Position numbers and translations under genes: made by a program
Shown here: one piece after another, positions 2,344 to 11,050 of the stretch
How positions within the stretch are numbered: the stretch's first letter is position 1
Layout: each line of letters opens with the position of its first letter
The notes under the pieces: model-generated
The model's database searches: none
What the model was told of the DNA's origin: nothing
What the model saw: only the letters and a program-made list of their open reading frames with translations
Source of the DNA: Anaerolineales bacterium
Lineage (GTDB): Bacteria > Chloroflexota > Anaerolineae > Anaerolineales > UBA6663
Length of the DNA: 13,245 bases
Assembly: GCA_017999235.1 (NCBI GenBank)
Contig: JAGOBN010000034.1
Coordinates: 1 to 13,245, forward strand
Direction: 5' to 3'

Positions 2344-4020
2344 ATGACCACCCTCGGTTCGCCGGCGCTGCGCGAGTTGGAAGGGCACCTCTCCGGCTGG
2401 CTGCGGCGCGTGCGGGCGCGGGAGGCCGGGGTCTGGGCCGGGCGCGGTCTGCTGGCCGGCCTGGCCGCCGGCCTGGGGCTGGCGCTGGTGGCCCGGCTGA
2501 CGCCCGTTCAGCCGCCGGCGGTGCTGGCGGCGTATGCCCTGGGCTTCGCGCTGGCGGGCGGTCTGGGCGCCGGGATCGTCGGCTACGTCTGGCCGCGTCC
2601 GCGTTTGGCGGCGGCGCGCTATTTTGACCGGGTCCTAGGCCTGGCCGAACGCACCTCGGCGGCGTTGGAATTGGCGGCGCGGCCCGAGCTGGCGCCGGAA
2701 TGGCTGCAGCGCGAGCAGTGGGCGGATGCCGTTCAGGCGGCGCGCGGGGTGCGGGCCGGCCGGCAGCTGCCGCTTTGGGTGGTGCCGCGGCGGGAGCTGG
2801 CGCTGCTGGCGGTGCTGGCGGCGGGGCTGGCGGCCGCGCTGCTGCTGCCCAATCCTCAGCAGGCGGTGCTGGCGCATCAGCAGGCCGTTGAACAATCGAT
2901 CGCCGAACAGCGCCAGCAGATCGAAGCCCTGATCGACCAAATCCAAAATGATCCGACCCTCACCGATCCGCAGAAGGATCAATTAACCCAGCCGCTGGAA
3001 CAGGCCCAACAGACCCTGCAGGAGCCGGGCCTGACGGAAGAGCAGGCGCTGCAGGCGCTGGCCGAAGCCCAGCAGGAATTGCGCGCCCAGGCCGATCCCC
3101 AGGCCGAGGCCCAGGCGGAGGCGCTGCAGGCGGCGGGCGAGACCCTCAGCCAGAACCCGACCACCGAAGCGGCCGGCCAGGCGTTGGCCAATGGCGATAC
3201 CCAGTCCGCCGCCGAGGCCCTGAGCCAGATTGACCCCGGCCAGCTGAGCGAGGCCGAGCGCCAGGCGTTGGCGGACCAGTTGGCGCAGACGGCGGACCAA
3301 TTGCAGAGCACCAACCCGGCGACGGCCGAGCAGCTGCGCGCCGCCGCCGAAGCCTTGCGGCAAGGCGATAACGCCGCCGCCGGCGCGGCCTTGGATCAGG
3401 CGGCGCAATCCATCGCGCAGTCTGGCCAGGCCGCGGCGCAATCGGCAGCGGCCGGCCAAGCCTCCGATGGTGTGGCCAGCGCGCAGCGCGCCATCGCCCA
3501 GGCGGGTGAAGGGCAGACGCCGGCCGCTGGTCTAGGTCAAGGCCAAAACCAGGGCCAGGGCCAGGGCCAGGGTCAAGGACAAGGGCAAGGCCAGGGCCAG
3601 GGACAAGGACAGGGCCAGGGTCAAGGTCAAGGTCAAGGACAAGGGCAGGGCAGCAGCGGCGCCGGCCTCGGCGAAGGCAACGGCCAAGCGCAGGGCGGGC
3701 AGGCCGGCGGCCAGATCGGCCAGGACAACGGCCCCGGCGACGGCGGCGAGCGTGTGTATGAGCCCATCTACTCGCCCTATCGCTTGGGGGGCGCCGGCGG
3801 CCCGGACGTGACTCTGCCGGACCAGGGCAACGGCCAGCCCGGCGATGAGGTGGTCGGGGAAGGGCCAACCGACCCGCAAACCGCCGGCGAAGTGACCGTG
3901 CCGTATAACCAGGTTTTTCCGGCGTACCGCGACGCCGCGTACTCGGCCGTGGATCAGGGCGAAGTGCCGCCCGAGTTGATCCCGGTGGTGCGCGATTACT
4001 TCTCGTCGCTGGAGCCCTGA
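2344..4020 (+). CDS. Membrane protein with Gln/Ala-rich helical region, (Gly-Gln) spacer and conserved-looking C-terminal cap
   Basis: There are 558 residues with three hydrophobic segments (about 33-51, 57-83, 148-168). Positive residues before the first (RRVRAR, 21-26) and before the third (VVPRRE) put the N-terminus and the 84-147 loop in the cytoplasm and everything after 170 outside. Residues about 175-395 are rich in Gln, Ala and Glu and look helical or coiled-coil. A (Gly-Gln) tract follows (398-435), then a Gly-rich stretch. The last 42 residues (PYNQVFPAYRDAAYSAVDQG, ending VRDYFSSLEP) look ordered. Similar endings occur, to my recollection, on membrane proteins next to MoxR genes. 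The N-terminal half resembles DUF4175-like proteins, but I would not assign that firmly. The start at 2344 lies 7 bases after the permease stop with GAGGG at 2335-2339. The role is probably a membrane scaffold or a partner of MoxR/DUF58 (inference). Confidence 0.85.
   Translation: MTTLGSPALRELEGHLSGWLRRVRAREAGVWAGRGLLAGLAAGLGLALVARLTPVQPPAVLAAYALGFALAGGLGAGIVGYVWPRPRLAAARYFDRVLGLAERTSAALELAARPELAPEWLQREQWADAVQAARGVRAGRQLPLWVVPRRELALLAVLAAGLAAALLLPNPQQAVLAHQQAVEQSIAEQRQQIEALIDQIQNDPTLTDPQKDQLTQPLEQAQQTLQEPGLTEEQALQALAEAQQELRAQADPQAEAQAEALQAAGETLSQNPTTEAAGQALANGDTQSAAEALSQIDPGQLSEAERQALADQLAQTADQLQSTNPATAEQLRAAAEALRQGDNAAAGAALDQAAQSIAQSGQAAAQSAAAGQASDGVASAQRAIAQAGEGQTPAAGLGQGQNQGQGQGQGQGQGQGQGQGQGQGQGQGQGQGQGQGSSGAGLGEGNGQAQGGQAGGQIGQDNGPGDGGERVYEPIYSPYRLGGAGGPDVTLPDQGNGQPGDEVVGEGPTDPQTAGEVTVPYNQVFPAYRDAAYSAVDQGEVPPELIPVVRDYFSSLEP
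3535..3651 (+). repeat. In-frame hexanucleotide repeat coding for a (Gly-Gln) tract
   Basis: In the reading frame of the 2344-4020 gene this stretch codes two Gly-Gln units, one Asn-Gln interruption, sixteen consecutive Gly-Gln units and a final Gly. At the DNA level the unit is GGNCAR, and all four glycine codons and both glutamine codons are mixed (for example GGC CAG, GGT CAA, GGA CAA, GGG CAA). The synonymous variation shows that the array is not a freshly slipped identical repeat; either it is old or the dipeptide is selected. It probably acts as a flexible, hydrophilic extracytoplasmic linker between the helical region and the C-terminal cap. Confidence 0.95.
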
Positions 4021-4069: not shown

Positions 4070-5080
4070 ATGGCCGTGGCTGATCCGCAGACCGCCCTGA
4101 AACCCGAGCTGACCGTCGCGCAGTTCCGCCAGATCGCGGCGGAATTGGAGCGCGAGGTCGGCCAGGTGATTGTGGGCCAGAGCGACGTGGTGCGGCATGT
4201 GTTTATCTGCCTGATCGCCGGCGGCCACGCGCTGCTGGAAGGCGTGCCGGGCCTGGGCAAGACCATGCTCATCAAGACCCTGGCCGAGGTGCTGGATCTG
4301 CAGTTCGCGCGCATCCAGTTCACGCCGGACCTGATGCCGGCCGATATCGTCGGCACCGACATTCTGGAAGACGGGCCGGCCGGCCAGCGCGCCTTCCGCT
4401 TCCAGCCCGGCCCGCTGTTCGCCAACCTGGTCCTGGCGGACGAGATCAACCGCGCCACGCCCAAGACGCAGTCCGCGCTGTTGGAGGCGATGCAGGAACA
4501 GTCGGTGACGGTGGCCAAGCGCACGTATAAGCTGGAGCCGCCCTTCTTTGTCCTGGCGACCCAAAACCCCATCGAGATGGAAGGCACTTATCCGCTGCCG
4601 GAAGCGCAGCTGGACCGCTTCTTGTTCAAGATTAACGTGGTCTTCCCCACCGCGGAAGAATTGGTGGAGATTCTGGCCCGCACCACGGGCGGGCCGCGCC
4701 AGGCGCTGCGGAAGACTGCCGCCGGCCAGCAGTTGGTGGCCATGGGCCGGCTGGCGCGGCAGGTGCCGGTGCCTTCACATGTGGCCGAGTATGTGGCGCG
4801 GCTGGTGGTGGCCACGCATCCGGAACACGACAGCGCGCCGCCGCTGGCCAAGCAATACTTGCGCTATGGCGCTTCGCCGCGCGGCGGGCAGGCGCTGATC
4901 CTGGGGGCCAAGATCACGGCCCTGTTCGCCGGCCGCGTCAACGTGGCCTTTGAGGATGTGGCGGCGGTGGCGCCGGCCGCCCTGCGTCATCGGCTGCTGC
5001 TCAACTTTGAGGCCCAGGCGGAAGGTATCACGCCGGATCAAATCATCGCCGAACTGCTCACCGCCGTCCCGCAGAAGTGA
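4070..5080 (+). CDS. MoxR-family AAA+ ATPase
   Basis: This is a cytoplasmic AAA+ ATPase of the MoxR group. Members typically act as chaperones that mature or assemble protein complexes together with VWA-domain partners. In 336 residues (usual length) the motifs are complete: Walker A GVPGLGKT (58-65), Walker B LADEINRA with D124/E125, sensor 1 ATQNP (163-167), the arginine finger in LDRF (R183), and sensor 2 GASPRGGQAL with R271. The segment FTPDLMPADIVGTDI (84-98) is a hallmark of the family. The gene is followed by DUF58 and two VWA genes, the classic neighbourhood, which strongly supports a MoxR-VWA functional unit. The start at 4070 is supported by AGGAG and by similarity beginning a few residues in. 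Both the catalytic and the oligomer-contact residues look intact, so it should be an active ATPase. The client is unknown. Confidence 0.96.
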   Translation: MAVADPQTALKPELTVAQFRQIAAELEREVGQVIVGQSDVVRHVFICLIAGGHALLEGVPGLGKTMLIKTLAEVLDLQFARIQFTPDLMPADIVGTDILEDGPAGQRAFRFQPGPLFANLVLADEINRATPKTQSALLEAMQEQSVTVAKRTYKLEPPFFVLATQNPIEMEGTYPLPEAQLDRFLFKINVVFPTAEELVEILARTTGGPRQALRKTAAGQQLVAMGRLARQVPVPSHVAEYVARLVVATHPEHDSAPPLAKQYLRYGASPRGGQALILGAKITALFAGRVNVAFEDVAAVAPAALRHRLLLNFEAQAEGITPDQIIAELLTAVPQK

Positions 5081-5085
5081 TCCGA

Positions 5086-5150
5086 GAGGCGGGGAGTGGG
5101 AAGCCGGAAGCTGGCCTGTCTCTCACCTTCCACCTCCCACCTCTCGCCTC
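5086..5150 (+). repeat. Long imperfect inverted repeat (purine half / pyrimidine half) between moxR and the DUF58 gene
   Basis: The 76-base gap is a purine-rich arm followed by a pyrimidine-rich arm. GAGGCG (5086-5091) pairs with CGCCTC (5145-5150). The stem continues inward through G-U and G-C pairs and one mismatch, then GTGGGA (5096-5101) pairs with TCCCAC (5135-5140). After a small internal loop, GGAAG (5106-5110) pairs with CTTCC (5127-5131). The remaining loop is about 16 bases. The pyrimidine arm can also be read as near-heptamers from 5124: CACCTTC, CACCTCC, CACCTCT, CGCCTCC, CACCT, ending at the ATG. The purine arm shows a weaker 7-base period. In RNA this would be a stable hairpin ending seven bases before the DUF58 start. 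No T-run follows, so it is not a typical terminator. It could act as an attenuator, a stability element or a degenerate repeat. Confidence 0.75.
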
Positions 5151-5156
5151 CCACCT

Positions 5157-6041
5157 ATGCCCCTCTTCTCTGAGACCACCCTCCGCAAGCTCGATCGCCT
5201 GGCGTTGGCGGCCGCGCAGGTGCGGGCCGGCGTGCTGAAGGGCGAGCGGCGCTCCACCAAGCGCGGCACCTCGGTGGAATTTGCGGACTACCGCGATTAC
5301 ACCCGCGGCGACGATCTGCGGCGGGTGGATTGGAACGTCTACGCCCGGCTGGAGCGGCCGTTTATTAAGCTCCTGGAAGAAGAAGAAGATCTGGCCGTGC
5401 ATGTGGTGGTGGACGAGTCGCGCTCGATGGATTTTGGCGCGGACGACCAGCATAAATTCACCTACGCGCGCCGGCTGGCCGCCGCGCTCGGTTACATCGC
5501 CTTGGCCGCCGGCGACCGGTTGAGCCTGGTGACCGTGCGGGGCGGGGCGCCGGCCGCGCAATATGGGCCGGCGCGCGGGCGCGGCCACGCTCTGCGCCTG
5601 ATCAATTTTCTGGAGGGCCGGCAGCCGGCCGGCGAGACCGTGCTGGATGCCGCGCTGCGCCAATACGCGCTGACCGCGCGCCGGCCCGGCCTGCTGCTGC
5701 TCATCTCCGATCTCTTCTCGCCGGCCGGCTATCAGGCGGGCCTGGCCGGCCTGCAGGGGCGCGGCTATGAAGTGGCGGTGCTGCACCTCCTGGCGCCGGA
5801 AGAGCTGGACCCGCCGCTGGCCGGCGATCTGCGGCTGGTGGATATTGAAACCGGCGCCGCGCAGGACGTCACCCTGGATGGCGGCCTGCGGGATCTGTAC
5901 CGCCGGCGCGTGCAGACCTGGCGCGACGAGATTGAGGCCCACTGCCTCAAGCGCCGCATCACCTATGTCCCGGTTTCCACCGCTGTCCCGTGGGACGAAC
6001 TCGTGCTTTATCAACTCCGCCAACGCGGCCTCATCCGCTAA
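5157..6041 (+). CDS. DUF58 family protein (VWA-like fold), MoxR partner
   Basis: There are 294 residues with no transmembrane segment, so it is cytoplasmic. The DUF58 signature is clear at 37-80: GTSVEFADYRDYTRGDDLRR, then VDWNVYARLERPFIK and an acidic EEEE stretch. A VWA-like core follows with the metal-site motif DESRS (86-90) after a hydrophobic strand, Thr161 at the expected third position, and Asp185 in LLISD. DUF58 proteins are the usual partner of MoxR ATPases. I chose ATG 5157 because family similarity begins close to it. The frame is open further upstream, but that part overlaps moxR and translates to low-complexity Pro/Arg sequence. The start has no Shine-Dalgarno site; it is preceded by the pyrimidine-rich arm of the inverted repeat. 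Many DUF58 proteins carry N-terminal helices that are absent here, so this is the short soluble form. Confidence 0.94.
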   Translation: MPLFSETTLRKLDRLALAAAQVRAGVLKGERRSTKRGTSVEFADYRDYTRGDDLRRVDWNVYARLERPFIKLLEEEEDLAVHVVVDESRSMDFGADDQHKFTYARRLAAALGYIALAAGDRLSLVTVRGGAPAAQYGPARGRGHALRLINFLEGRQPAGETVLDAALRQYALTARRPGLLLLISDLFSPAGYQAGLAGLQGRGYEVAVLHLLAPEELDPPLAGDLRLVDIETGAAQDVTLDGGLRDLYRRRVQTWRDEIEAHCLKRRITYVPVSTAVPWDELVLYQLRQRGLIR

Positions 6042-6073
6042 TCACTTAACCACCCAATCCATCCATCACCCCC
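6039..6073 (+). repeat. Diverged TAATCACC-type leader before the BatA-like gene
   Basis: From the stop codon of the DUF58 gene the sequence reads TAATCACT, TAACCACC, CAATCCAT, CCATCACC, CCC and then ATG at 6074. It therefore starts with the same octamer pattern seen in the cleaner array at 7988-8074. It contains no G at all and no Shine-Dalgarno sequence. The octamer match is clear for the first two units and weak afterwards, so common origin with the later array is inference. Confidence 0.55.
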
Positions 6074-7990
6074 ATGTCCTTCCTCACCCCCCTGGCCCTC
6101 GCCCTTGGCGCGCTGGCGCTCCCCATCTTGGTGCTGTATATGCTCAAGCTGCGGCGGCGGGAGGTGGAGATTCCCTCAGTCATGCTCTGGCAATTGCTGC
6201 TGCGGGACCGCGAGGCCAACGCGCCCTGGCAGCGCCTGAAGCGCAGCCTGCTGCTGCTGTTGCAGCTCTTGCTGCTGGTGTTGGTGGTGGCGGCTTTGGC
6301 CCGGCCGTTTCTGCGCGTGCCGGCCGTGGCGCGCGGGACCGTCATCGTTTTGCTGGATGCCTCGGCTTCGATGAATGCCGCCGACGGGGGCGCCGGCCAG
6401 ACCCGCTTTGAAGCCGCGCGCGCCGCGGTCCGCCAAATTGTGGACGGGCTGGCCGGCGACAGCCGCCTGACGCTGATCCAGGTGGGCCGGCAGCCGCAAG
6501 TGCTGGCCTCCGCCACGGCCGATCAGCCGGCCTTGCGCGCCGCGCTGGCGCAGGCCCGGGTCTCCCAGGGGCCGGCCGATTGGGAGGCCGCTTTTGCGCT
6601 GGCCGCCGGCGCCGCGCGGGCCGGCCGGCTGGACCAGGCCACCATCGTCATTGTGTCGGACGGCGGTTTGCCGGCCGCGGGGCTGCCGCCCCTGCCCGGC
6701 GATGTGCGCTATGTGCCGATTGGGACCGAGGCTGAGAATCTGGCCCTGGCGGCGCTGTCAGTGCGCGCCGCCGCCGGCGGACCGGAATTGTTTGCGCGCG
6801 TCGCCAACGCCGGCGTCACCGAGCGCGCGGTCATTCTCTCGATCGAGCGCGCCGGCGCGCTCTACGGCGCCCAGCAGCTGACGGTGCCGGCCGGCGGGTC
6901 GGCCGATCTGACGCTGACGGCGCTGCCGGATGGCCCGGCGGTATATACCGCGCGTTTGACGGCGCCGGGCGCGGAGCCAGACGCCGCGCTGGATGCCCTG
7001 CCGCTGGATGATGTGGCCTGGGCCGTCTACCAGCCGCCGGCCTCCGGGCGTGCCTTGCTGCGTTCGCCCGGCAACGTCTTTCTGGAACAGATCCTCACCG
7101 CTCTGCCGGGCCTCCAGCCGTTTCGGCTCTTGCCGGGCGCGGAGCCGCCGGCCGAGACCTTCGATCTCTATGTGCTGGACAGCGTCACCGAGACGGTGGC
7201 CCCGGCGGACGGCGCGCTCCTGTGGGTGAACCCGATCTCCAGTGCATTGTTCACGGTCGGCGCGGTCTTCACCAATACCGAGCTGCTGCGCGTGGCCCAG
7301 GATGATCCGCTGACGCGCTACCTGGATTGGAGCGGCGTGCACGTCCTGCAGGCGCGTCAGGTGACCGCGCCGGCGTGGGCGCGCGTGGTGGTGGAGGCGG
7401 CCGGCGGCCCGCTGGTCTTCGCCGGCGAGACGGGCGGCCGGCGCGTGGCGGTGCTCACCTTCCGGCTGCAGGATTCGGATCTGCCCTTGCAGTTGGCGTA
7501 TCCGGTGCTGATGTCCAACCTGATCAATTACCTGGCGCCGGCGCAGGCCTTTTCGGCGCCGGATGGCCTGCGGCCCGGCGGCTCGCTCACCATTCGTCCG
7601 CGCGGCGGGGAGAGCGCCATCGCCATCATCGCGCCGGACGGCACGCGTTTTCAGGCCGCGGCCACCGAAGCCGGCGTGCTCTTTACCAACAGCGACCAAC
7701 TGGGCTTGTATTCCGTTGTCTCCGATCAGGCGCAAGTGGGTGTCTTCGCCGTTAATCTATTTGACCCGGCCGAGAGCGCGCTGCGGCCGGCCGCCGCCAT
7801 CCGGGTGGGCCGCGCCGACGTCAGTGCCGCGCCGCAGGCGGAAGTGGGCCAGTTGGAGATCTGGCGCTGGGTGGCGGCCGCGGCGTTTGTGATCCTGTTG
7901 CTGGAATGGTGGGTCTATCAGCGCGGCGCCACCTTGCCGGCGCTTCCCGGCTGGCGCGGCTTCTTCCGGCGCAAAAAAATCACCCCCTAA
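6074..7990 (+). CDS. BatA-like membrane VWA protein (aerotolerance-type N-terminal domain)
   Basis: There are 638 residues. The N-terminus matches the BatA-type domain: a helix at about 5-24, then LKLRRREVEIPSVMLWQLLL, ANAPWQRLKRS and a second helix at about 58-77 ending ALARPF. The VWA domain follows at about 88-225, with metal site DASAS (95-99) and Asp196 in VSDGG. The middle (about 225-590) is beta-rich and likely extracytoplasmic. A third helix at about 598-614 and a basic tail (FFRRKK) end the protein in the cytoplasm. Charge distribution places the VWA domain outside the membrane. The gene lies in the MoxR-DUF58-BatA order expected for this system. The Bat name comes from Bacteroides aerotolerance genes, but similar proteins occur widely and no link to oxygen tolerance can be read here. 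The start at 6074 fits the family N-terminus; its leader has no ribosome site. Confidence 0.92.
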   Translation: MSFLTPLALALGALALPILVLYMLKLRRREVEIPSVMLWQLLLRDREANAPWQRLKRSLLLLLQLLLLVLVVAALARPFLRVPAVARGTVIVLLDASASMNAADGGAGQTRFEAARAAVRQIVDGLAGDSRLTLIQVGRQPQVLASATADQPALRAALAQARVSQGPADWEAAFALAAGAARAGRLDQATIVIVSDGGLPAAGLPPLPGDVRYVPIGTEAENLALAALSVRAAAGGPELFARVANAGVTERAVILSIERAGALYGAQQLTVPAGGSADLTLTALPDGPAVYTARLTAPGAEPDAALDALPLDDVAWAVYQPPASGRALLRSPGNVFLEQILTALPGLQPFRLLPGAEPPAETFDLYVLDSVTETVAPADGALLWVNPISSALFTVGAVFTNTELLRVAQDDPLTRYLDWSGVHVLQARQVTAPAWARVVVEAAGGPLVFAGETGGRRVAVLTFRLQDSDLPLQLAYPVLMSNLINYLAPAQAFSAPDGLRPGGSLTIRPRGGESAIAIIAPDGTRFQAAATEAGVLFTNSDQLGLYSVVSDQAQVGVFAVNLFDPAESALRPAAAIRVGRADVSAAPQAEVGQLEIWRWVAAAAFVILLLEWWVYQRGATLPALPGWRGFFRRKKITP

Positions 7991-8074
7991 TCACCTAATC
8001 ACCTAATCACCAATCACCAATCACCAATCACCAATCACCAATCACCAATCACCAATCACCAATCACCAATCACC
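7988..8074 (+). repeat. Tandem array: three TAATCACC octamers then nine AATCACC heptamers
   Basis: The array starts on the TAA stop of the BatA-like gene. TAATCACC occupies 7988-7995, 7996-8003 and 8004-8011. AATCACC then repeats exactly nine times from 8012 to 8074, with no substitutions. CAATCCCTC follows, then the ATG at 8084. It fills nearly the whole 93-base gap and contains no G. The three octamers place TAA in all three reading frames. The perfect identity of the heptamers points to recent slippage expansion, so copy number is likely to vary between strains. It is much too short-period for a CRISPR array. It resembles in kind the short tandem heptanucleotide repeats known between genes in some cyanobacteria, but I do not claim the same sequence. 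Confidence 0.97.
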
Positions 8075-8083
8075 CAATCCCTC

Positions 8084-11050
8084 ATGTCCTTCGCCTCCCC
8101 CTGGTTTCTCCTGCTCGCGCTCACCCTGCCGGCCCTGGCCTGGCTCGGGTGGCCGGCGCGCGGGTCCACCCAGGGGCGGGAACGAGTCAGCCTGCTCCTG
8201 CGCCTGCTGATCGCGGCCCTGCTGATCCTGAGCCTGGCCGGCCTGGAGCTGCGCCGCGCCTCGGATACCTTGTCGGTCGTCTTCTTGGTGGACGATTCGG
8301 ATTCGATGCGGCTGCCCCTGCAGACGGAGGCCGGCGCCACCACGCCGCATCAATTGGCGCTGGCCTATGTGCGCCGCGCCCTGGAGACCATGCCGGTGGA
8401 GGACGCGGCCGGCGTGGTGCTCTTCGGCGGCGACGCGGTGGTGGAACGCCCGCTGTCCGCCAGCCGCGCGCTGGCTTTGCCCACGTCCAAAGTCGTCTCC
8501 CTGCAGACGGACCTGGCCGGCGCCATCCGCCTGGGCTTGGCGCTGCTGCCTACCGATACCGCGCGCCGGCTGGTGATCCTCTCGGATGGGCTGGAGACCA
8601 CGGGCGACGCGCTGGAGGCGGCCCGCCTGGCGGCCGCCAACGGCACGCAGATTGTGGTGGTGCCGTTCAACATCAGCGGCGGTTCGGAAGCGCTGGTGAC
8701 CGCGGTCAAGGCGCCCACGCGCCTGCGCCAGGGCGAAGAGTTCGCGCTGGACGTGCAGATTGAGTCGACGCTGGATCAAGTGGTGGGCGTGCGCGTGCTG
8801 GCCGGCGAGGCCGTGGCGTACGAGGGCCAGCTGCAATTGCGGCGCGGCCCCAACGCCTTCGCGCTGCCGCTGAAGGCCGGCGCGCCGGGCTTTGCCGCCT
8901 ACCGGGTGCAGATTACGCCAGCGGCCGGCGCCGACACCTTCTACCAGAACAACGAAGTGGCCGCCTTCACCCAGGTGGCCGGCCCGCCGCGTTTGCTCCT
9001 GATCACCAACCCCCAGCCGCGCGATGGCGTGGCCGGCGAGCCGGAATTGCTGGCGGCTTTGCGCGCCTCCGGCTTCCAGGTGGATGTGCTGGACCCGGCG
9101 CGCCTGCCGGCCGAACTGCCGGCCCTGTCCGAGTATGCGTCGGTTATTTTGGTGGATGTGCCGGCGCGCGCGCTGGCGCAGCGTCAGATGCGGGCGCTGG
9201 AAACCTACGTGCGCGACCTGGGCGGCGGGCTGGTGGCCGTGGGCGGCCCCACCTCGTACGGCGTGGGCGGCTACTTCCGCACCCCGCTGGCGGAGGTCTT
9301 GCCGGTCGATATGGAGATCAAGGATCAGAAGCGCCGCGCGCGGCTGACGCTGGTCTTTATCGTGGACAAATCCGGCAGCATGTCCGAGGTCTCCGGCGGC
9401 GCGCAAAAAGTGGATTTGGCCAAGGAGGCCGTGATCCGCTCGCTGGAATTGCTGAGCCCCACCGACAAAGTGGGCGTGATTGCGTTTGACGATACGGCCG
9501 CCTGGGTGGTGCCGATCACGCCGCTGGAGAACCCGGACGCGGTTGCCAACGCGGTGGGCACCATTCGCGCCGACGGCGGCACCGATATCCTGGCCGGCGT
9601 GCAATTGGCGGCCGGCGCGCTGCCGCAGGATGATTCGGCCGTCAAGCACGTGATCCTGCTCACCGACGGCGGCGCGGACCCGACCGGTATCCCGGAGCTG
9701 GTGCGGCGCCTGAATGAGGAGTACGGGGTCACGCTCTCCACCGTGGGCGTCGGCCCCGGCGCCGCGCCTTTCCTGCCGCAGCTGGCGGAGGCGGGCGGGG
9801 GGCTGCATCACTTCGCGGCTGATCCCAGCACCATCCCGGCCATCTTCGCCGAGGAGACCACGCTGGCCACCCGCGCGTACATTGTGGAGCAGGATTTCTT
9901 CCCGGCCCAGGTCAGCCCCAGCCCGATCCTGGCCGGCCTCACCGCCGTGCCGCGCCTGCTAGGCTACATCGGCACCACGGCCAAGAGCGCGGCCCAGACC
10001 ATCCTGGTCAACCCAGACAGCCCCAACCCGGAAGCTCCCGATCCCGTGCTGGCGGCCTGGCAGTTTGGCCTGGGGAAGTCCGTGGCCTGGACTTCGGATG
10101 CCACCGGCCGCTGGGCCAAGTATTGGGTGAGCTGGGATGAGTACGCGCGGTTCTGGGCGCAGGCGGTGCGCTACACCATTTCGGCCGGCGCGGCGTCCCC
10201 GGCCGGCGTGCGGGTGGAACGGTCCGGCGAACAGGCCGCCCTCACCGTGGACGCTCAGACGCCGGCCGGCGCGTTCCTCAATGGGTTGACGGTGCAGGCC
10301 AATGTGGTGGGGCCGGATGGCGAGACGCAGACCGTGACGCTGGCGCAGGTCGCGCCCGGCCGCTACACCGGCGCATTCACGCCCGCGGCCGAAGGCGCCT
10401 ATTTGATCCGGGTGACCGGGGTAGAGGGCGCGGCGGACGGCGAGCCGGCCGTGGCGCAAACCGCCGGCTGGGTGCTCTCGTATTCGCCGGAGTATCAGCG
10501 CCTGGCCGCGCCGCCCGAAACCGATTCACAAGCGATGCCGGCGCAGGTGCGTTTCCTGCTCCAAGTGGCGGCGCTGACCGGCGGCGGGGCCGTGACCGGG
10601 GACTATGCCCGGGTCTTCGCGCATGATCTGCCGCAGCCGCCCAGTTCCGCGCAGCCGGTGTGGCCGGCGCTGCTGCTGGCCGCGGCGCTGTTGTGGCCGG
10701 TGGATATCGCCGTGCGCCGGCTGGTGATTACGCGCCTGGATCTGCGCCGGGCGTGGGAGCGGGGGGTGAGCTGGCTGGGGCTGGGCGCGCGCCCGGTCGT
10801 GGCGGCGCCGCCCCGGCCGGAGCGCCTATCCGGGTTGTTCCAGGCTAAACAGCGCGCCGGCGAGGCGGCCCCCCGGTCGCCGGCGGGTGAGCGGCCGGCC
10901 GCAGGCCCGCCGCCAGCGGCGGCTTCCCAGGTGGACAGTCCGCCGCCCCCAATGAGTCCGCCCGCGACGCCGCCGGCCGCGTCACCTACCACGACCTCGG
11001 CGGCGCTGCTGGCGAAGAAGAAAGCGCGCGAGAAGAAGCCCGGCGATTAG
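8084..11050 (+). CDS. Large membrane protein with two VWA domains flanking a glutamine-amidotransferase-like domain
   Basis: There are 988 residues. Helices lie at about 6-23 and 36-54, giving an extracytoplasmic body. VWA-1 spans about 62-200 (metal site DDSDS 70-74, T142, D168 in LSDG), followed by a beta-rich segment. Residues about 301-415 form a class I glutamine-amidotransferase-like domain (RLLLITNP, GGGLVAVGGPTSYGVGGY, TPLAEVLPV). VWA-2 spans about 421-595 (DKSGS 428-432, T500 in DGGTD, D528 in LLTDG). A beta domain with YTGAFTPAAEGAYLI follows, then a helix at about 857-873. The final 110 residues are cytoplasmic and rich in Pro and Ala, ending in a Lys-rich tail. I see no cysteine, so the amidotransferase-like domain cannot use the usual Cys nucleophile and is probably structural or ligand-binding. 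This architecture is known in VWA proteins near MoxR. It begins MSF like its upstream neighbour and has no ribosome site. Confidence 0.92.
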   Translation: MSFASPWFLLLALTLPALAWLGWPARGSTQGRERVSLLLRLLIAALLILSLAGLELRRASDTLSVVFLVDDSDSMRLPLQTEAGATTPHQLALAYVRRALETMPVEDAAGVVLFGGDAVVERPLSASRALALPTSKVVSLQTDLAGAIRLGLALLPTDTARRLVILSDGLETTGDALEAARLAAANGTQIVVVPFNISGGSEALVTAVKAPTRLRQGEEFALDVQIESTLDQVVGVRVLAGEAVAYEGQLQLRRGPNAFALPLKAGAPGFAAYRVQITPAAGADTFYQNNEVAAFTQVAGPPRLLLITNPQPRDGVAGEPELLAALRASGFQVDVLDPARLPAELPALSEYASVILVDVPARALAQRQMRALETYVRDLGGGLVAVGGPTSYGVGGYFRTPLAEVLPVDMEIKDQKRRARLTLVFIVDKSGSMSEVSGGAQKVDLAKEAVIRSLELLSPTDKVGVIAFDDTAAWVVPITPLENPDAVANAVGTIRADGGTDILAGVQLAAGALPQDDSAVKHVILLTDGGADPTGIPELVRRLNEEYGVTLSTVGVGPGAAPFLPQLAEAGGGLHHFAADPSTIPAIFAEETTLATRAYIVEQDFFPAQVSPSPILAGLTAVPRLLGYIGTTAKSAAQTILVNPDSPNPEAPDPVLAAWQFGLGKSVAWTSDATGRWAKYWVSWDEYARFWAQAVRYTISAGAASPAGVRVERSGEQAALTVDAQTPAGAFLNGLTVQANVVGPDGETQTVTLAQVAPGRYTGAFTPAAEGAYLIRVTGVEGAADGEPAVAQTAGWVLSYSPEYQRLAAPPETDSQAMPAQVRFLLQVAALTGGGAVTGDYARVFAHDLPQPPSSAQPVWPALLLAAALLWPVDIAVRRLVITRLDLRRAWERGVSWLGLGARPVVAAPPRPERLSGLFQAKQRAGEAAPRSPAGERPAAGPPPAAASQVDSPPPPMSPPATPPAASPTTTSAALLAKKKAREKKPGD
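11047..11050. other. Overlapping convergent stop codons (TTAG)
   Basis: The plus-strand VWA gene ends with TAG at 11048-11050. The minus-strand peptidase ends with TAA, read from 11049 to 11047. The two genes therefore overlap tail to tail by four bases, with no intergenic space for an intrinsic terminator for either operon. Confidence 0.93.

Follow-up and report, generated by a model that had tools for sequence, protein, structure and literature searches.

A G-free heptanucleotide array before a VWA-domain gene belongs to a class of intergenic heptamer repeats in Anaerolineae

In the window, the 13,245-nt stretch of Anaerolineales DNA analysed here, the gap before a gene for a 988-aa VWA-domain protein carries a heptamer array that is real, with its sequence and unit counts confirmed. 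The array is the single-arm, unstructured form of a class of heptamer arrays present in many, but not all, of the Anaerolineae examined. Since relatives carry many fast-changing intergenic heptamer repeats, the window array is probably no dedicated switch but a changeable spacer.

The array lies in an operon with the gene order ABC ATPase, permease, repeat-rich protein, MoxR-type AAA ATPase (4070..5080, with an SD-like AGGAG upstream; SD, Shine-Dalgarno), DUF58 (5157..6041), BatA-like VWA protein (6074..7990) and, last, the 988-aa VWA-domain protein (8084..11050). The closest matches to the proteins of the window are from Anaerolineales of the Chloroflexota. The four located genes and the gap features described below are on the + strand, and two genes on the opposite strand follow the operon. 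The repeat-rich protein, of 558 aa, had no Pfam match at E 1e-5, and a low-complexity tract in its gene (3529-3651) encodes a Gly-Gln repeat.

The array (7988..8074) consists of three copies of TAATCACC, at 7988, 7996 and 8004, and nine AATCACC units from 8012 to 8074; counting the one within the last TAATCACC, ten perfect AATCACC 7-mers follow each other without interruption (8005-8074). A nine-base linker, CAATCCCTC (8075..8083), separates the last unit from the ATG at 8084. These unit counts and the nine-base distance were given correctly in the first-pass annotation, which also equated the array with the whole gap. The repeats are as counted there, but the first TAA (7988-7990) doubles as the stop codon of the BatA-like gene, and the gap proper is 7991..8083. 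The lag-7 identity of the array is 28/28, compared with 21 for the best among 2000 shuffles of the gap.

The gap forms a VWA-gene leader of 93 nt that contains no G and no ATG, GTG or TTG, and its predicted minimum free energy (MFE) is 0 kcal/mol, i.e. it is predicted to be unstructured, as had been proposed for a G-free leader. Since the leader has no G at all, it has no SD sequence either, which bears out the earlier description. The longest G-free run in the window extends beyond it (7972..8085, 114 nt; 48 C, 47 A, 19 T and 34 YC dinucleotides) and qualifies as a possible Rho utilisation site by its C-rich, G-poor composition. At least 90% of 25 aligned homologues retain the first Met of the 988-aa frame, supporting the frame as originally called. 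The proposal that the array replaces the ribosome-binding region holds for the VWA gene but not for arrays in general: SD sequences are present in 15/45 array gaps, compared with 303/740 other co-directional gaps and 69/619 at a control position. Arrays do not exclude SD sequences, and SD sequences are used in the relatives' genomes.

The operon contains a second heptamer gap, before the DUF58 gene (5081..5156), in which G-rich units are followed by C-rich, CTCCCAC-like units. This array is degenerate (lag-7 identity 21/28), and its two mirrored arms are predicted to form a hairpin (5084-5152) whose stem stops four bases short of the ATG; the predicted folding energy of the segment 5080-5197 is -37.6 kcal/mol, whereas its shuffles average -33.35 (z -1.25). 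The leader of the BatA-like gene (6042..6073) is also G-free and is not heptameric by the lag-7 test. Two arrays in one operon are unusual, arrays being rare in the genomes nearest to the window (G001, G002, G003 and G010, in the family of the nearest relative), where they occupy 4/263 gaps.

To place the array, we sampled 80 loci (1.23 Mb) centred on homologues of the VWA gene and a further 1.60 Mb of stretches from relatives, and took gaps of 35-600 nt between genes called by a small script of our own, eye-checked on the window and one locus only. After removal of exact duplicates, period-7 arrays were found in 59/1125 unique gaps of these Anaerolineae (Chloroflexota), similar gaps of sister species remaining in the array, fold, per-genome and VWA-gap counts. 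Counts at other lags in the same gaps were 24 at lag 14, 18 at lag 8 and 0-6 at lags 2-6, 9-13, 15 and 16; lag 7 gave none in 1165 shuffled gaps and none in 1135 coding pieces. Once the last set of stretches is included, period-7 arrays occur in 78/1237 unique gaps. In 628 upstream stretches, matches at lags greater than 3 are most frequent at 7, 14 and 21, and 566 downstream stretches are much alike. A stricter scan of whole loci (80% over 28 positions) returned 18 arrays lying mostly in gaps, which make up 153,228 bases, and eight lying mostly in coding DNA, which accounts for the other 1.08 Mb. Coding DNA is therefore strongly depleted in period-7 arrays but not free of them. After 7, the basic short period seen most often is 8, in 18/1125 gaps and 0/1135 coding pieces.

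The class is unevenly distributed among genomes. Array gaps number 18/85 in G017, 10/72 in G018 and 8/56 in G019, from which we extrapolate, on the sampled stretches, to roughly 930, 470 and 620 array gaps in these genomes; G012 has period-7 arrays in 0/114 gaps. The first-pass annotation had named an invariant copy number and no other arrays in the genome as the outcome that would speak against a variable element. This outcome was not found among the relatives, where several genomes have arrays in abundance.

Comparison of orthologous gaps supports the view that arrays of this class vary between species in 7-base steps and also by replacement of the word. The gaps before the VWA gene in G017 and G018 are exactly 7 nt apart (58 vs 51 nt) between flanks that are 98.9% identical, and those of G013 and G016 (266 vs 249 nt, flanks 91.7% identical) show two 7-nt indels among others. 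The earlier suggestion that leader length may vary between strains in 7-base steps is supported, for the class, between sister species at the orthologous gap, in arrays of other words. Where the flanks are 84-89% identical, the words nevertheless differ (ATCACGC in G017, CTGCTCA-type in G025 and ATTACCC-type in G031), and each replaced word has its own complementary arm (loci L036, L044, L035, L041, L037 and L047). The predicted folds of these six gaps, two of which are near-identical, range from -17.3 to -33.5 kcal/mol. Indels of size 7 number 22 in 38 array pairs, against 14 each for sizes 6 and 8, while 137 other pairs give 31, 45 and 34 for sizes 7, 6 and 8; this table is only supportive, as alignment over replaced arrays means little and events recur across pairs. 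Among relatives with a readable leader, the closest (L029, 72% identical in protein) has CATCCGYT-like units without a clear period, and the leaders before the VWA gene in L002 and L003 have no such units.

Arrays are found at the VWA gap in 12/59 cases and in 22/383 other gaps of the same 80 loci (by subtraction from 34/442; P = 6e-4), with relatives that are not independent and the 12 arrays representing about seven lineages by our own reading without a tree. This excess, together with an uneven distribution of unit mismatches among the seven positions (standard deviation 0.059; highest of 40 controls, 0.057), hints at selection.

Array gaps in relatives are mostly predicted to fold. The fold z of 55 co-directional array gaps no longer than 260 nt has a median of -5.65, with 75% below -3, compared with -1.41 and 29% in a sample of 150 non-array gaps, relative to shuffles that preserve base counts only. 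Many of the folding array gaps consist of mirrored heptamer arms. In 45 of the 55 gaps z falls below -2; the 5' arm is G-rich in 35 of these, C-rich in eight and equal in two (P = 4e-5, sister gaps included). None of 24 hairpin gaps (at most 120 nt, below -20 kcal/mol) has a terminator-like U-run, scored as at least six T in the 10 nt after the stem, and we rejected intrinsic terminators as a reading of these gaps.

Heptamer words vary among genes and species yet keep a loose pattern. When C-rich units are aligned by rotation, the pattern Y-S-N-Y-Y-A-C emerges at 3.33 bits, and none of 20 permuted controls exceeded 2.59; with 101 arrays the value is 3.11 bits, and none of 40 controls exceeded 2.47. 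AATCACC (rotated, CAATCAC) and CTCCCAC fit it roughly. The word AATCGGT recurs in 15 gaps of six genomes. Words are shared in 64/264 pairs within genomes and 379/2738 between genomes, but the observed 0.242 is below the largest of 500 permutations (0.253), and we dropped the spread of words within genomes as a strong claim.

Strand polarity was counted in co-directional gaps only, since "toward start" is true by construction in divergent gaps and false in convergent gaps. The sense strand is C-rich in 35 of 49 co-directional arrays, G-rich in 11 and equal in three (P = 5e-4). The distance from array end to start codon is at most 5 nt in 18 of the 49, and that from stop codon to array beginning is at most 5 nt in 16. 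Where an array ends no more than 20 nt from a start (35 cases), it is C-rich in 24 and G-rich in eight; these 35 arrays contain 3.98 start codons per 100 nt, compared with 7.22 in their reverse complements. SD-like 4-mers show no such difference between strands (1.54 vs 1.59 per 100 nt), so that avoidance of false SD sequences is not supported. The C-rich sense polarity is not universal, as the 16 arrays near an upstream stop only show no strand preference (eight C-rich and seven G-rich).

The window's own word is found elsewhere in Anaerolineae. Three AATCACC in a row occur in 20/396 genomes, whereas AATCACC pairs are scarce in relatives (2/8 and 7/20 genomes), and we rejected the word as a lineage marker; the marker is period 7. 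The same word read backwards is no null for these counts, as it fits the same pattern and forms arrays too. Nine AATCACC units lie 15 nt before a His_biosynth gene in L245 (genome G234), two lie before a peptidyl-tRNA hydrolase (Pept_tRNA_hydro) gene in L091, where the stop codon of the upstream gene overlaps the array, and three lie before a DNA polymerase III gamma/tau-like gene in L235. Among the matches listed, 44 AATCACC loci were inspected, of which 33 are distinct: 12 precede a gene on the C-rich strand, 10 precede a gene on the other strand and 11 lie inside called genes, with the C-rich strand sense in 10/11. Arrays within genes are seen at L230, L232, L241, L247, L083, L084, L090, L094, L095 and L097. 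Three AATCACC units make 21 nt, or seven codons, and the opposite strand reads TGA. We found no function shared among the six downstream genes checked.

We consider it probable that the window array is a slippage-prone array tolerated as a G-free, SD-less leader, in the single-arm form of the intergenic heptamer class. Units would be gained and lost by strand slippage and may be copied across mirrored arms by template switching, and the gap would tolerate such changes, many stop-to-start lengths being permitted. Purifying selection would act near starts, and the C-rich orientation may persist beside the start codon because fewer start codons would be brought there. The VWA gene would be started without an SD sequence from an open A/C/T-rich region, possibly with help of the ribosomal protein S1 type; S1-domain proteins occur in 10/10 relatives, this being a broad Pfam family and not proof of ribosomal protein S1. 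A change in copy number would move the start codon nearer to or farther from the upstream stop. It may alter expression to a small degree, which would be a by-product and not a selected switch, and the array perhaps has graded effects on translation or Rho termination. The scarcity of arrays in the genomes nearest to the window, the incomplete polarity and the signs of selection noted above weigh against this reading.

A more speculative reading, which we hold to be rather doubtful, is that a rapidly rewritten element occupies the operon gaps of many Anaerolineae. Its G-rich arm would follow the stop and its complementary C-rich arm precede the start, with the letters replaced and the pairing, period, polarity and place kept. 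The window array would then be an arm without a partner, now tuning the last gene by its length. Such an element would point to selection on architecture (e.g. stop-start proximity or protection of the operon mRNA) or to a dedicated copying process.

The first-pass annotation proposed for the array a phase-variation-like or rheostat control of the last gene of the MoxR operon. On such a reading, slippage would alter the unit number and hence the translation of the VWA gene, giving adaptive cell-to-cell variation. The ten identical 7-mers, which suggest recent turnover, the 7-nt length differences that separate sister species at the orthologous gap and the higher array frequency before the VWA gene (12/59 vs 22/383, not independent) are in keeping with it. 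However, arrays also precede unrelated genes, some of housekeeping families, and their words turn over; several hundred array gaps per genome, as extrapolated above for G017, G018 and G019, are too many for private switches; and no reading frame is switched. Phase variation was also judged unlikely for the heptamers of Xanthomonas and Nostoc (Rehm et al. 2015, PMC4692102). We regard a selected control of this kind as unlikely, and this part of the original interpretation is not supported.

The most concrete rival is a Rho-dependent attenuator, since the leader fits the C-rich/G-poor description and each unit adds YC dinucleotides. The 114-nt stretch would be a rut site that becomes stronger with each unit, and copy number would set how much operon mRNA reaches the last gene. 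With 48 C, 0 G and 34 YC dinucleotides, the stretch has the composition described for Rho utilisation sites (C-rich, G-poor, unstructured, about 70 nt or more), binding and termination being putative, and Rho protein is found above the cut-off in 10/10 relatives. Rut sites are described as C-rich/G-poor unstructured stretches, and C>G bubble properties track the efficiency of the weaker terminators of E. coli, but the correlation is absent for stronger terminators (PMC9160355). Composition alone is weak evidence; in the relatives, the folding predicted for most array gaps (z below -3 in 75% of 55) would mask a rut site, and one directly ahead of a translated gene would cost expression. An attenuator seems to us improbable here.

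We give little credence to the idea that the array is a landing strip for an RNA-binding protein of the S1, cold-shock or KH type, which would recognise a YNAC-like core every 7 nt and control a set of genes. This reading is modelled on the proposal for TAACTGA repeats by MacGregor (2015, PMC4679880), who named the S1, Csp and Csr families as candidates; the KH type is added here. The unit pattern common to different words and the 18/49 co-directional arrays that end within 5 nt of the start codon are consistent with it, but orthologous gaps carry replaced words, base pairing is predicted for many arrays and the six downstream genes checked have no common function. An assembly artefact, in which the assembler made the repeat or mis-set its length, is highly improbable: perfect repeats exceeding a k-mer are often mis-sized in assembly and the array is known from an assembled contig, but nine AATCACC units are present in G234 (L245) as well and three in a row in 20/396 genomes of the class.

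Similar heptamers are already in print for Xanthomonas, Nostoc and Beggiatoaceae. The repeats GGGAATC of Xanthomonas and GGGGA(C/T)T of Nostoc are G-rich heptamers (Rehm et al. 2015, PMC4692102) and, like the Anaerolineae arrays, have a period of 7 and are intergenic, preferably between aligned ORFs. Their G-rich strand is antisense within 50 bp upstream of ORFs, so that the C-rich strand is sense as in the Anaerolineae, and is sense within 50 bp of stop codons; some repeats overlap the stop codon, as the window array does. Xanthomonas also has convergent repeat pairs (70 and 75 cases), and repeat length differs between relatives, the type (single or pair) being usually kept (PMC4692102). That study followed quadruplex-forming word families, whereas the Anaerolineae have many words, and AATCACC/GGTGATT has no GGG on either strand and thus lacks the run of at least three G of GGGAATC-type units. 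Nostoc has few pairs only, and 83% of Xanthomonas repeats stay in the same gene context between two species (PMC4692102), whereas the Anaerolineae replace words; single Anaerolineae arrays also lack a G-rich excess near stops (eight C-rich vs seven G-rich). Heptamer gaps of Xanthomonas occupy more conserved genomic places than controls (Rehm et al., PMC4692102), which counts against reading the arrays as tolerated spacers.

TAACTGA repeats of Beggiatoaceae, Cyanobacteria and Bacteroidetes (MacGregor 2015, PMC4679880) are likewise heptamer arrays near start codons; SD sequences occur in only about 10% of the repeat gaps, indels between two Cyanothece strains are mostly 7-nt increments and Microcystis has mixed heptamers. 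Rotated to TGATAAC, the word fits the Anaerolineae unit pattern, but it is not the window unit, and the general pattern alone is in common. Unlike here, one word was followed, related heptamers being rare as direct repeats in the main genome, and one indirect repeat is mentioned in the text drawn on, while Anaerolineae commonly have folding mirrored arms; Chloroflexota are not among the groups named there (PMC4679880). In surveys of long simple sequence repeats, heptanucleotides are the most abundant class in most genomes, with polymerase slippage proposed (Mrazek et al. 2007, via PMC4679880). The window array is such an intergenic simple sequence repeat, with perfect or near-perfect tandem 7-mers in a gap, but that class is statistical and lacks the Anaerolineae anatomy. 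The AGAT repeats of Moraxella uspA2 are also tandem repeats in a 5' untranslated region, between promoter and start, with a strain-variable copy number; unlike the arrays here, they are tetranucleotides before one surface-protein gene, with an effect on expression shown experimentally (via PMC4679880). In the open-licence literature we found no Chloroflexota study on heptanucleotide or heptameric repeats, and for Chloroflexi intergenic heptamers only "Satellites in the prokaryote world" (PMC6749651), in which Chloroflexus aurantiacus is among the genomes with many short satellites.

The origin and role of intergenic heptamers were left unsettled in what we draw on from Rehm et al. 2015 and MacGregor 2015. 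Because orthologous gaps of the Anaerolineae swap words and keep pairing, the question of selected structure or mutational by-product becomes testable by sequence comparison. The window array, as a single arm, offers a clean substrate for relating SD-less starts and Rho sensitivity to copy number. Beside the known systems, the Anaerolineae form a rich comparative set, with many words under one loose grammar and words that are swapped with their pairing ability retained.
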